In this document: positions 14,020 through 26,396 of the stretch, in pieces | Layout: the number at the start of each line of letters is the position of its first letter | Position numbering within the stretch: position 1 is the stretch's first letter | IMG/VR virus record: IMGVR_UViG_3300035698_017446 | Location: 1-26,562 of that record | Strand: one strand, 5' to 3' | Length of the DNA stretch: 26,562 nucleotides | From: a virus | Made by a program: the position numbers and the translations under genes | The notes under the pieces: model-generated | Seen by the model: only the letters and a program-made list of their open reading frames with translations | What the model was told of the DNA's origin: nothing | Database searches by the model: none

Positions 14020-15477
14020 TTATGCATCTAATCTAAAAATCAACTCTCCTGCTGAAGTTGGGTCTTGCATTTGAATACCACATTCACTTAACATATGAAC
14101 TCTGTATCCATCTATACCACTTCCTCTCATAGTAGAAATAGATTTTGCAACCCCTCCATAAGGATCAGTAGAACCTGCTTCATGCCACATTGCATTTTCA
14201 CTATCTGTAAGAGATACTTTTCTAATATTGTTTTTACCGTCTTTTCTACCAAAATTAAGAATAGTAAATCTATAAGATTCTACTGGACGTTGAGTAATAG
14301 GATGTAACTCTCTATTGTGTACTAAATCATCGTAAGGATCAAATTCTTTAACAGTTAATTCAATACCATTTAAAAATTTAACAGTTCTATATTGTCCTTG
14401 AAAAGTTAAATCTTGTCCTTCACCATTTATAAATACTCCACCATCAGTAACAACAATACCTCTAGCATTAGCTTCATTTCTAATAGCTCTGTCAAATTCT
14501 CTCATTCCCATTTTACCAGTAAGAGCAACAAACTTATGATCACCACCCCATGCATTAGCAGCATAAGATAATTTCAATAAGAAATCATCAAGTAGTGTAT
14601 AAGTTAAATTGTTGTAATACTGTACGTTTGAAGGAGAAATTTGTTGACGTACACCTGCTCCATGATATACAGGTCGTTGAGATTGACCTCTTACAACAGT
14701 ATTAGAAACAGGAGAAGAATTGAATTGAGTATAAATCATACTTCTATCAATTTCTCTTTGCCATTGTGCAAGAGCTGTCCATTCACCTATTTTAGTCCAC
14801 AATCTTGTGCTTTTACTTGGATCAACAGGATCATGTAGTTTTAGTATCATAACTGCTTTAGAAGCAGTACGAGAAACATCATAATGTTTTCTTAATGTAG
14901 TAAGTTGATTAAGCAACTGTACAGGTGTAGAATAATTTGTACCACCACCTTTACTAGAATATTCTTCTACAGTAGAATACATTTTAGATACTTCATTGCC
15001 TTTACCTAAAACAGAAGGATCAATAAAATCTACATCATTATCAACAAGTTGAACAGGGTAAACAAAAAATACTCCATCTTGATAAGGTTCATCACAAACT
15101 CTTATCATATTACCATTATCAAGTCTTAGATTATCAGTAGCTTCATAATGATTTTCTTCAAGGATTAAATCAAATTTAGACTGACCTAAACCTGCTTGGG
15201 TAGCTGTAACTGCTTTTGCAATTTTTACAGTAATTTCTGTTTGTCCGTGTACATCCCATTTGTACTGTCTATCAGAAGTTTCTTTAGTATTACCTATACC
15301 GCCAGTCAACATATTTAACACATTATTACCTGTCATACCAAAGGCATAAGCAAGTACACCTTCCATTTTAGTAGGCTCTGTTAAATAAGCATTAGCAAGG
15401 TGATTACTTTCAGTTAGTCCTGAAAAATCTCTCGATACATTTAACTGTAAAGGAGAGAGGTTATCTTGTGTTTTCAT
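14020..15477 (-). CDS. Major capsid protein, HK97-fold, crAss-like (485 aa)
   Basis: Length, position and sequence style match the crAss-like major capsid proteins. The N-terminal arm (about residues 1-45) contains SRDFSGLTESNHLANAYL, followed by a GGIGNT turn. A long body has the mixed basic/acidic loops of an HK97 shell protein, and the C-terminal strand ends MLSECGIQMQDPTSAGELIF. It is preceded by a coiled-coil scaffold-like gene 29 bases upstream and followed by a terminator, as expected for the most abundant virion protein. There is no obvious N-terminal scaffolding domain of the HK97 delta type, which agrees with a separate scaffold gene. No capsid protease gene is visible in the window. 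The assignment is strong. Confidence 0.9.
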   Translation of the reverse strand: MKTQDNLSPLQLNVSRDFSGLTESNHLANAYLTEPTKMEGVLAYAFGMTGNNVLNMLTGGIGNTKETSDRQYKWDVHGQTEITVKIAKAVTATQAGLGQSKFDLILEENHYEATDNLRLDNGNMIRVCDEPYQDGVFFVYPVQLVDNDVDFIDPSVLGKGNEVSKMYSTVEEYSSKGGGTNYSTPVQLLNQLTTLRKHYDVSRTASKAVMILKLHDPVDPSKSTRLWTKIGEWTALAQWQREIDRSMIYTQFNSSPVSNTVVRGQSQRPVYHGAGVRQQISPSNVQYYNNLTYTLLDDFLLKLSYAANAWGGDHKFVALTGKMGMREFDRAIRNEANARGIVVTDGGVFINGEGQDLTFQGQYRTVKFLNGIELTVKEFDPYDDLVHNRELHPITQRPVESYRFTILNFGRKDGKNNIRKVSLTDSENAMWHEAGSTDPYGGVAKSISTMRGSGIDGYRVHMLSECGIQMQDPTSAGELIFRLDA

Positions 15478-19525: not shown

Positions 19526-21814
19526 TTAAAAGATGTTTAGTAAAGGCTTTCTATCTCCTGACTTTAAATCAGACACGTAAGAATGTTGTTTAGAAAGATG
19601 CGAAATATCTCTCGGATTTCCTAATAAATTTTCTCTAAATGCTTTAAAAAATTTATCTCTATGGTCTTTGTCCTTAGCTTTCTTTATTCGTATGTTAAAC
19701 ATTTGATTATCATACAAAATAAGTAACATTAAAGCTATCATTCTATCGTAATTACCAAATTCTAAACTAAATGCAGCAGCTTCTTTAAGTAATGGTATTG
19801 ATTTAATTGTATGTAAATACAATTCGCCATCACCATTAGGTACTATTGTTTCAAAATATTCTTTAACAAAAAATATTAAATCTTGTTGTTGTTTAGGAGG
19901 CATACCTATACCTTTATTTCCTCTACCTGAACCTGTTTTAACTCTTTTTTGACTATTATCTTGTGTTTTAATTATATCTGGTGTATCGGCTAATAAATGC
20001 AAAGAATGTTTTTGTTCAAAATGCATTTTAATAGAGTTACGTTCATTCTCATATAAATCAGTAGCACCATAATGTAACAATAACTTTCTTACATTTTCAT
20101 GATGAATACGAGCTAATTGGGGTCTACCTGTATATTCAGCTACTATCTTTTTACATATTCTTCCATCAATTTCATATCTTTTCATTAATAAAGTACTGCC
20201 CATAGAAGCTGTATTATCAGCTTTATCTTGATCATAAGGATCAGTAGCAGCAATGTACATACCATAAAGAGGATTTTCTTCAGGGTCTTCCCAAATAACA
20301 AAACAACCATCTGGTTGTTGTCCTAATTTAATAGGAAAATCAGCAGGATAAAGTTTACCTTTTGTATCTCTTATAAATTTAGTTTTTCCTGTTTCTGTAA
20401 TAACAATATCTCCATATTTACCTCTAAATTCAGTTTTCTCTTGTTGAGATTCTAAATATTTAATATGATCTTCTATAGCAGGTATATCAAAAATATTATC
20501 TGTTTCACTTAAAAAAGCTTCACTTGGTTTTTCAGGTCTATTTTGTAATTCAGAATTATATACAACTCTGTCATTTGCTTTAAGTGCTTTTTCTCTTCTT
20601 AATTCATTTTTACGTTTAGCTTTTTTACTATCTAAAATTCCTTCACTATCTCTAAATTCATTAAAGCCTACATGAGAAGGAACAAATAAACCAATTTTTC
20701 CTTTATGTTCATATATATCATCAAAAGATAAACACTCGTAAGCTTCTGTATTATAAAATACTTTTTTAGATTGAACAGTACTTCCACCTTCCATATCACC
20801 ACCAGTACCCATACACCAAATAACTCCAAACTTATTATCTCCTGTATATGTACAATCTTTTAATGCTCCTAGTGTTCTACTAAGATTAGACATAAAACCA
20901 ACTTCTTCAATATAATTAAGATTACCTCTAGTACCTGCTCCTGCAAAAGGATTATCTTTAAATGTACGATGTTGTATTTTACTTCTAGTACCTTTAGTTT
21001 GCCATTGTCCACCTATTTTAATATCATATTCATTAATAATAGTTTTACTAGGTTCCCATGAACCACTATAAGCTTTAATTAAAGGAGATGGATAAGTTTT
21101 TTTATTAACAACAACACTACCAGGAAGTGAAGATAATCCTAGTTTTACTTTTTTAAGAAGATCAGCAGAATATTTTGCATCATAAGCACCTACAAGTGTT
21201 TCAGATGAATATGGTTCTTTTTCTTTAATTCTTTCAAAATAATCATCGTAATCTAAACAACCATCTGTTAAAAAATTATGACCTATATTTGAAGCAGCAT
21301 AATAACTTTTACCTGTACCTCTAGCTTCAATATCCATAACATTACTAGCTGGATTTTCATATTTAGCTTTACCTAAATCAGAACCATGATAAGTTCTTAA
21401 ATAGTTTCGTACATCTACATATTTATAATTTTTATAAAAATCATATACATCAGGATAAAGTTCTTTACATATAGATATATTATTAGGAGCAAGTAATCTT
21501 AAACATGTAACTTTAAAATCTTTTTCAAAACCACTAAAACCTTTTGCTTCTTGATATATTAAAGATTTCTCCCAATCTAAATCTCTTAAATCTGGTCTAC
21601 CTAGTTTTTTATTTTTAGATAAAGGGTCTTTACTTAAAAGTATACGCCAAAAATTAACATAAAAATAAAGATCAGGAGGCATCCATTTACCTCCCATCCA
21701 ATGACCTTGTATTATACGTCTTTTTTGTTCTTTCCAGTAAGATAATCTTTGTGGATCAAAAGGACTATAATGAGGTATAGTAGGTTCTAAAAAAACTTGA
21801 TTACTTATTAACAT
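19526..21814 (-). CDS. terL: Terminase large subunit (762 aa)
   Basis: This is the packaging motor ATPase and nuclease. The ATPase domain has a Walker A loop at residues 163-170 (EARGTGKS), a Walker B strand at 299-303 (LNYIEE region, catalytic Glu about 302-303) and a coupling motif near 334-340 (CMGTGGD). The RuvC-like nuclease domain follows: first acidic residue D525 in AATDPYD, a second acidic cluster near E589-E591 (YENERNSI), and D690 in NYDRMIALML. The order and spacing are those of a complete TerL. The N-terminus (1-100) is longer than in many families, as in crAss-like enzymes. The start codon lies inside the end of the IHF-like gene (14-base overlap), so the two are translationally linked. 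Portal follows at once. Confidence 0.93.
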   Translation of the reverse strand: MLISNQVFLEPTIPHYSPFDPQRLSYWKEQKRRIIQGHWMGGKWMPPDLYFYVNFWRILLSKDPLSKNKKLGRPDLRDLDWEKSLIYQEAKGFSGFEKDFKVTCLRLLAPNNISICKELYPDVYDFYKNYKYVDVRNYLRTYHGSDLGKAKYENPASNVMDIEARGTGKSYYAASNIGHNFLTDGCLDYDDYFERIKEKEPYSSETLVGAYDAKYSADLLKKVKLGLSSLPGSVVVNKKTYPSPLIKAYSGSWEPSKTIINEYDIKIGGQWQTKGTRSKIQHRTFKDNPFAGAGTRGNLNYIEEVGFMSNLSRTLGALKDCTYTGDNKFGVIWCMGTGGDMEGGSTVQSKKVFYNTEAYECLSFDDIYEHKGKIGLFVPSHVGFNEFRDSEGILDSKKAKRKNELRREKALKANDRVVYNSELQNRPEKPSEAFLSETDNIFDIPAIEDHIKYLESQQEKTEFRGKYGDIVITETGKTKFIRDTKGKLYPADFPIKLGQQPDGCFVIWEDPEENPLYGMYIAATDPYDQDKADNTASMGSTLLMKRYEIDGRICKKIVAEYTGRPQLARIHHENVRKLLLHYGATDLYENERNSIKMHFEQKHSLHLLADTPDIIKTQDNSQKRVKTGSGRGNKGIGMPPKQQQDLIFFVKEYFETIVPNGDGELYLHTIKSIPLLKEAAAFSLEFGNYDRMIALMLLILYDNQMFNIRIKKAKDKDHRDKFFKAFRENLLGNPRDISHLSKQHSYVSDLKSGDRKPLLNIF

Positions 21815-23824: not shown

Positions 23825-24049
23825 TTAATTAAATTTTAGTTTAAAATTTTCAATCGGTTTATCTTTAGTTGTTATTTTTTTTATAACAAAATCTTTAACT
23901 TCTTTTTTAACAGCACCTATTGTTATTATTCTAAAACAATTTTTACTACTACATTTATATCTACCTTTACCATTAACAGGTTGTATTTTATTAAGTATGC
24001 AATAATCATTACTGCATGAAGAATCAATAGTGCTTATTTGTTGAGGCAT
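23825..24049 (-). CDS. Zinc-ribbon-like small protein (74 aa)
   Basis: Four Cys are placed as two knuckles: C12-x4-C17 and C33-x4-C38, with the turn NGKGRYKCSSKNCFR between strands. This looks like the zinc ribbon of small DNA- or RNA-binding phage proteins. A Lys-rich tail (49-74) follows. Spacing within each pair is longer than the usual two residues, so metal binding is probable but not certain. It starts 4 bases after the stop of the GroES-like gene in the same operon. The function is unknown. Confidence 0.6.
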   Translation of the reverse strand: MPQQISTIDSSCSNDYCILNKIQPVNGKGRYKCSSKNCFRIITIGAVKKEVKDFVIKKITTKDKPIENFKLKFN

Positions 24050-24053
24050 TAAT

Positions 24054-24473
24054 TTAACTATTTTTTATTATAGATGCTATTTCATGCACATAAAATTCAT
24101 TTAAAGTGTAACCATTTAATATAGATTCAGTTCCACCTTTAATAGGAAGAATATAATCTCCTGCATTTAAATTATAATTAAATTTATCAACTATAGTAGG
24201 ACAAAAAGCTATAACTTTCATAGCATATCGAATAGAATCTACTTTAAGACTATGTTTGTTTACAGTATCAGAAAGTAAAATTTTACTATTTGTTGATTCA
24301 AATAATATATCAGGAATAGGTAAAACAGCTATTCTTGAATTAATTGGTTGATACCCTTTAAGATCATTTAAAATATCTTCAAATTTTTTATGAAGTTGAT
24401 TATATTTTATTAAATCTTGTTTACTTAATTCTTTTATTTCTTTTTCACTTAATTTTTTATATTGTACTTTCAT
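24054..24473 (-). CDS. Probable GroES-like (gp31-type) co-chaperonin (139 aa)
   Basis: Residues of about 43-139 follow the GroES fold plan. INSRIAVLPIP (44-54) is the first strand. Residues 56-72 look like a mobile loop with a hydrophobic triplet (KILLS, 64-68) where GroES has its GroEL-contacting Ile-Val-Leu. AMKVIAFCP (84-92) matches the 'V-x-A-V-G-P' strand, NAGDYILPIKGG (103-114) the 'V-K-x-G-D-x-V-L' strand and roof-loop region, and YVHEIASII (128-136) the closing 'E-x-D-I-L-A-I' strand. About 40 helical, charged N-terminal residues are extra compared with GroES (about 95 residues). Phage T4 gp31 and similar proteins replace GroES during capsid-protein folding, and this phage may use it for its capsid protein. 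The call is from pattern only. The ATG overlaps the upstream TGA (ATGA). Confidence 0.55.
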   Translation of the reverse strand: MKVQYKKLSEKEIKELSKQDLIKYNQLHKKFEDILNDLKGYQPINSRIAVLPIPDILFESTNSKILLSDTVNKHSLKVDSIRYAMKVIAFCPTIVDKFNYNLNAGDYILPIKGGTESILNGYTLNEFYVHEIASIIKNS

Positions 24474-25630: not shown

Positions 25631-25812
25631 GTTTTATTAAATCTATTAATTAATTCTCCTACAAGAAGATCATAATCTTCATTTGGTCTTGCTGGAATAT
25701 GTCTAGCAGGTACTTTTTGATTTTCCATCATAGTATCTGTTATACTGTCCACTTTTTCTAATAATTTTTTATCTGATAAAGTGCATAATTCAAAATTTAC
25801 TAATGCATTCAT
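25618..25812 (-). CDS. Small hypothetical protein (64 aa), with possible -1 frameshift extension
   Basis: This is a helical, charged protein beginning MNALVNFELC, with no recognised family. I place the start at the ATG 25812-25810, which forms a 4-base ATGA overlap with the upstream stop like several other pairs here. A GTG three codons earlier is possible but less likely. The zero-frame ends TLKK-TAA at 25618. Just before this stop lies T-TTA-AAA-AAA, a shift-prone run. The -1 frame stays open to a TAA at 25547 and would add 24 highly charged residues (IIEKIKEDNEC...), giving about 88 in all. That extension has no start codon of its own, so it is either reached by slippage, the result of one missing A in the assembly, or not used. 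Confidence 0.6.
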   Translation of the reverse strand: MNALVNFELCTLSDKKLLEKVDSITDTMMENQKVPARHIPARPNEDYDLLVGELINRFNKTLKK

Positions 25813-26396
25813 AATTCCCACTCATTTAATAAACAATATGTTATAACTTCTTGATCTACAGTTTTAAATAAAAAATCATTCCATTGTGCGCCATTATTAA
25901 GAACTTGACAAGCTGTTGACCATCCATTAATGTGCTCTTTAAATTCATCAGCATTTCCCGTTTTTACATCATGTATATGTGCATGTATAATATGATCATT
26001 AATTACTTCGCCTAATTCTTCTACTTTTTCATTTTTATTATTATCTCTATAATAAGGCCAAGCTTTATTTTGTCTATAAACTAATCTACCTTTAGATTGT
26101 CCTCTTTTATGAGAATCATATACTATTCTATCAGCTTCTAATACAGCTACACCATCTTTGTTATAAGTATTAAATTTTTTTAAACCTCTAGAACCTGTGT
26201 TAGTAGTGCCATGATATTGTCCTATATATCTAGTTTCTAAAAACAAATAAAAAGTATCATCAAATTTATTATAAGCATCTTCATCGCTTCTGACACCTAT
26301 TAACCAATAATCTTCAGGTAGTTGTTTAAATCCTTTTGCATTACTAATTACTCTATTAATCAATTGTCCACTTGTATATGGTTTTACATTTTTCAT
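25809..26396 (-). CDS. His/Cys phage protein, possible L,D-transpeptidase (YkuD)-like lysis or wall enzyme (195 aa)
   Basis: The order of blocks matches a phage family I recall: FDDTFYLFLETR (45-56), GTTN (63-66), DGVAVLEADRIV (81-92), YYRDNNKN (115-122), HAHIHD (138-143) and GWSTACQV (158-165). The last two resemble the His and the Ser/Thr-x-x-Cys of cysteine peptidoglycan enzymes of the YkuD/L,D-transpeptidase kind, where His and Cys are catalytic; the likely nucleophile is C163. There is no signal peptide or membrane segment, so export would need a holin or similar factor. The start overlaps the upstream TGA (ATGA), and the gene ends in an ATGA overlap with the next. It may be an endolysin or a wall-modifying protein. 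The enzymatic role is inferred from motif layout only. Confidence 0.6.
   Translation of the reverse strand: MKNVKPYTSGQLINRVISNAKGFKQLPEDYWLIGVRSDEDAYNKFDDTFYLFLETRYIGQYHGTTNTGSRGLKKFNTYNKDGVAVLEADRIVYDSHKRGQSKGRLVYRQNKAWPYYRDNNKNEKVEELGEVINDHIIHAHIHDVKTGNADEFKEHINGWSTACQVLNNGAQWNDFLFKTVDQEVITYCLLNEWEL

Follow-up and report, generated by a model that had tools for sequence, protein, structure and literature searches.

The window, i.e. the whole 26,562-nucleotide stretch of viral DNA analysed here, encodes a terminase large subunit (19526..21814, minus strand; PHROG 6681, E 6.7e-91), a portal protein (PHROGs match, E 1.8e-122) and a major capsid protein of 485 aa and 54.2 kDa (14020..15477, minus strand; PHROG 11589, E 1.4e-102), and these matches indicate that it is a fragment of a crAss-like phage genome. 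The best phage record for the terminase is Cellulophaga phage phi14:2, at 33% identity, and the capsid protein shares 43% identity with its counterpart in the gut phage cr55_1. Upstream of the terminase, at a distance of 2.2 kb and in the same-strand operon, lies an open reading frame of 139 codons with an ATG start, which occupies positions 24054..24473 exactly as originally predicted; the prediction had given no strand, and the frame was found on the minus strand (24473 to 24054), the plus strand of this interval being riddled with stops. Its product, of 139 aa and 16.0 kDa, is the putative GroES-like co-chaperonin described below. There is a 4-base overlap between the start of the gene and the stop of its upstream neighbour, and 4 bases past the gene's own stop the next gene begins; the gene is therefore one member of a co-directional run of small minus-strand genes leading into the terminase. 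Its immediate neighbours are small genes of unknown role, and the capsid gene is approximately 9 kb away. Directly downstream, positions 23825-24049 (minus strand) encode a 74-aa four-cysteine zinc-ribbon-like protein, and elsewhere in the window a 195-aa protein (25809-26396, minus strand) has a weak PHROG endolysin match (E 0.0023).

Single-sequence methods are insufficient to reveal the GroES likeness of the 139-aa protein. Taken alone, it gave no acceptable match in Pfam, PHROGs, NCBIfam, PDB sequences, annotated phages or IMG/VR, and as a query against phage records and viral contigs it found no match. Pfam Cpn10 (PF00166) searched directly against the window likewise found nothing; the PF00166 cut-off, a detection limit and not a biological feature, is not reached by this protein. 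Its Pfam matches to DUF2019 (E 0.02) and Ku (E 0.15) fall below the cut-offs and were taken as chance, and an AlphaFold model built from the single sequence (pLDDT 37) was discarded. When compared with a Cpn10-positive clade of relatives using hhalign, the protein alone gave 0.13 and the protein together with its nearest relative gave 1.8e-5. The same two-sequence profile searched against the PDB yielded no Cpn10, and its weak capsid match (E 0.022) was deemed chance.

Approximately 160 related contigs were gathered through terminase and capsid alignments, and the top weak matches of the 139-aa protein in these contigs included small open reading frames just upstream of the terminase. Some of these encode a plain GroES, e.g. 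that at L041:9199-9483 (37 bits against Pfam Cpn10, cut-off 21), and both this relative and L066 lie above the PF00166 cut-off. Iteration from the Pfam-positive clade collected 34 proteins, every one of them sharing the strand of the terminase and lying 0-5.7 kb upstream of it, a range that the 2.2 kb of the window gene fits. Random profile hits would not cluster in this way. Among 37 loci with at least 6 kb of sequence upstream of the terminase, 12 carry a gene of this GroES-like type, 10 carry a gut type described below and 15 carry neither by these models, a split that does not amount to a survey, as a gut-type query had been used to retrieve the gut-type loci. In each of two contigs (L052:8783-9415 and L054:3030-3710), a longer protein (211-227 aa) encoded upstream of the terminase apparently holds the GroES-like barrel within longer extensions, the call being borderline for L054. 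A further crAss-like contig (L180; record G014, 34574-34828, plus strand) encodes a canonical Cpn10 (50.6 bits) that, unlike the rest of the family, lies on the opposite strand to the terminase, at a distance of approximately 13 kb.

The membership of the 139-aa protein in this family is borne out by leave-out profiles. A profile of related crAss-like proteins from which the 139-aa protein was excluded scores it at 20.4 bits (E 2.7e-4 among 10,324 open reading frames), a score reached by none of 4,994 shuffled sequences (best shuffle 13.1), and the next best of 15 window proteins tested obtains 6.7 bits. With the nearest relative left out too, the protein scores 14.0 bits and all shuffles remain lower (best 12.2). 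The GroES-like strand order noticed at the outset is thus beyond chance. The profile members were collected by iteration, during which the profile E-value ranged from 73 to 4e-4, with a final value of 0.024. The best identities are 20-28%. A profile built from the 139-aa protein and eight relatives, with the Pfam-positive clade excluded, gives Cpn10 as its top PDB match (E 1e-6). A sensitive search for a Cpn10 match, as originally suggested, therefore succeeds through the relatives but returns nothing from the libraries for the protein by itself.

The conserved place of the gene is evident from the nearest phage, L095, whose capsid protein is 70% identical to that of the window and whose genes are syntenic with those of the window, gene by gene, from the terminase upward. 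Genes of 90, 179, 166 and 109 aa match between the two (E 3e-4, 6e-15, 2e-16 and 2e-9, respectively), followed in L095 by two short genes (83 and 75 aa) in matching positions with no significant similarity, of which the 75-aa gene, at the place of window positions 23825-24049, also carries zinc-ribbon-like cysteines. The place of the 139-aa protein is then occupied by a 151-aa protein, 21% identical over the barrel and with a similar N-terminal extension. In NCBIfam, this L095 protein matches only three co-chaperone GroES models (best E 9.5e-4), and the matches fall well short of those models' own cut-offs.

AlphaFold, supplied with a 25-row alignment of relatives, predicts a Cpn10 beta-barrel for the 139-aa protein (pLDDT 76.4, pTM 0.64), with a confidence of approximately 90 for the strands at the C-terminus and low values for the mobile loop; a fold without the barrel, which would have spoken against the original prediction, was not obtained. 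In a Foldseek search against the PDB with this model, the top 34 of 34 matches were Cpn10/GroES proteins, T4 gp31 (1g31, rank 33) included, with modest E-values (best 3e-3) and TM-scores of 0.4-0.7, and the best named viral fold matches were phage GroES proteins. The alignment included Cpn10-positive rows, so that the evidence from the fold is to some extent tied to that from the profiles. Ahead of the barrel, the helical N-terminus of approximately 40 residues anticipated from the sequence is also predicted, with helices at residues 10-14 and 18-37 (residues 10-37, 24363..24446, minus strand; pLDDT approximately 85). The GroES-like barrel domain spans residues 40-137 (24063..24356, minus strand), with the profile match covering residues 35-137. 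Within it, alignment places the mobile-loop segment at residues 53-86 (24216..24317, minus strand), with low model confidence at residues 59-62 and 73-80, and the roof segment at residues 91-104 (24162..24203, minus strand). The ILL triplet (residues 65-67; 24273..24281, minus strand) lies in the low-confidence, flexible segment, at the position where E. coli GroES has its GroEL-binding IVL, and this triplet and the GDYILP strand (residues 105-110) are both present as described at the outset.

The protein shares with GroES/Cpn10 (PF00166) the predicted barrel, a mobile loop with a hydrophobic triplet, the G-D turn before the roof-side strand and the order of the C-terminal strands. It differs from GroES in lying below Pfam detection, in its 40-residue helical N-terminus and in the lengths of two segments. 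Between the same anchor columns, the mobile loop has 34 residues, compared to 25 in E. coli GroES and 30 in gp31, and the roof segment has 14 residues, compared to 19 and 12, respectively. Loop lengths in the family are mostly 30-38, with a few extremes down to 21 or up to 58, and most members have a roof segment of 10 residues. By contrast, the loop measures 24-25 residues in six other GroES proteins of phages, five of which have a roof segment of 18-19. The comparison with gp31 made in the original prediction consequently holds, as the short roof segment is a family trait and the long mobile loop is found in most members. Like gp31 and RB49 CocO, the 139-aa protein is phage-encoded, with a long loop, a short roof without a hairpin and a fold match to 1g31, and it differs from gp31 in its N-terminal extension and in that its service to the capsid is our inference. 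The resemblance does not extend to a closer relation in sequence, since the family profile matches GroES at E 7e-8 and gp31 at E 1.3.

It had also been suggested that such a factor would be unreported in crAss-like phages, and this was not borne out. A gene of another type is carried by 33 phage records, mostly Crassvirales, and in most annotated cases (approximately 30) it is named chaperonin or putative chaperonin. These gut genes, e.g. that of cr55_1, approximately 4.2 kb upstream of the terminase, are likewise small, lie 3-7 kb upstream of the terminase on its own strand and resemble GroES in their C-terminal half; however, they constitute a sequence family of their own, marked by a conserved IDFDLFKD motif, and their profile link to the present GroES-like family is weak (P 0.01). 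A PDB profile search with the gut genes gave no GroES match, and their name is taken here, unconfirmed, from the records. In 2017, 36 marine genomes belonging to the same group as Cellulophaga phage phi38:1 and IAS virus were reported to encode GroEL homologs (PMC5332604), and the core genes given for another flavophage family include Cpn10 (PMC8776804). A full-text search of open-access papers found none discussing GroES in crAss-like phages in detail. The 139-aa protein is therefore new and very divergent, but the kind of gene is already known; what may be new is that the loop and roof resemble those of gp31 and that the place of the gene is conserved among environmental lineages.

The crAss-like relative phi14:2 also encodes a protein, g096, 0.6 kb upstream of its terminase that joins the GroES-like profile family. 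This GroES-looking protein, annotated as hypothetical (L003:32264-32653, minus strand; IIAVGNGTEFKPGD), is accompanied in the same genome by a GroEL, and this cultured phage may thus carry a full chaperonin pair. The phi14:2 gene g104, which lies beside the GroEL gene, was considered as a possible GroES and shows no GroES pattern. Unlike phi14:2, 20 records nearer to the window yielded no GroEL gene, which suggests that the partner of the 139-aa protein is probably the GroEL of the host. When bacterial genomes were scanned for the capsid protein, most matches were contigs from metagenome bins spanning mixed phyla, so that no host was assigned. Some crAss-like capsid genes (L188-L193) were found in bins of Sphaerochaeta, Lachnospiraceae, Bacilli and other non-Bacteroidota, and these contigs are probably mis-binned, the alternative being unusual hosts.

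Taken together, the family profiles, the synteny and the predicted fold provide good support for a co-chaperonin identity of the 139-aa protein. By homology with GroES and gp31, the protein would form a seven-membered lid, which would dock via its ILL mobile loop on the GroEL of the host and so cap the folding cage with phage proteins inside. The longer loop of gp31 and its lack of a roof are considered to make the cage larger and more open for a capsid protein of 56 kDa (PMC6318259, PMC3012670), and the gp31-like loop and roof lengths found here suggest that the cage would most likely be roomier or more open to accommodate a large phage protein, for which the 54-kDa major capsid protein would be the best candidate. 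We consider it probable that the gene encodes a phage GroES-type co-chaperonin of this kind, i.e. a ring docking on host GroEL, with a roomier or more open cage and the capsid protein as the leading candidate client.

The protein could instead be a general co-chaperonin that adds to or substitutes for host GroES in the folding of many proteins and has no special role for the capsid, as all essential folding in E. coli can proceed with T4 gp31 or RB49 CocO in place of GroES (PMC3012670), and the gene sits among small genes of unknown role at a distance from the capsid gene. The family's conserved place beside the packaging and head genes, and loop and roof lengths like those of the capsid-adapted gp31 and unlike those of ordinary phage GroES proteins, make such a general lid rather doubtful. 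It is less probable still that the GroES barrel has been kept while the co-chaperonin work was lost, the protein now serving e.g. as a head or packaging accessory: its extreme divergence, its helical extension, its place next to the terminase and the longer proteins in which some relatives (L052, L054) carry the domain would agree with this, but the hydrophobic triplet and the flexible loop, which serve GroEL docking, have been retained. That the likeness to GroES is due to chance or profile drift in an unrelated protein, as the absence of any direct match in a curated library might suggest, is rendered very improbable by the shuffle test, the synteny and the fold search.

The co-chaperonin reading provides a function for a gene overlooked by all standard libraries. 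Across environmental crAss-like phages, a GroES-like gene upstream of the terminase is a recurring feature, and its loop and roof are similar in length to those of T4 gp31. We tentatively propose, as a possibility that may well prove too broad, that in many of these phages a fast-diverging gp31-like co-chaperonin encoded at a conserved place upstream of the terminase remodels the host GroEL cage for the capsid protein, and that a T4-type capsid-folding strategy is therefore common but unrecognised in the order. If the capsid protein does depend on the co-chaperonin, this would help to explain how heads are built in these abundant phages, and it would matter for the laboratory expression of crAss-like capsid proteins.
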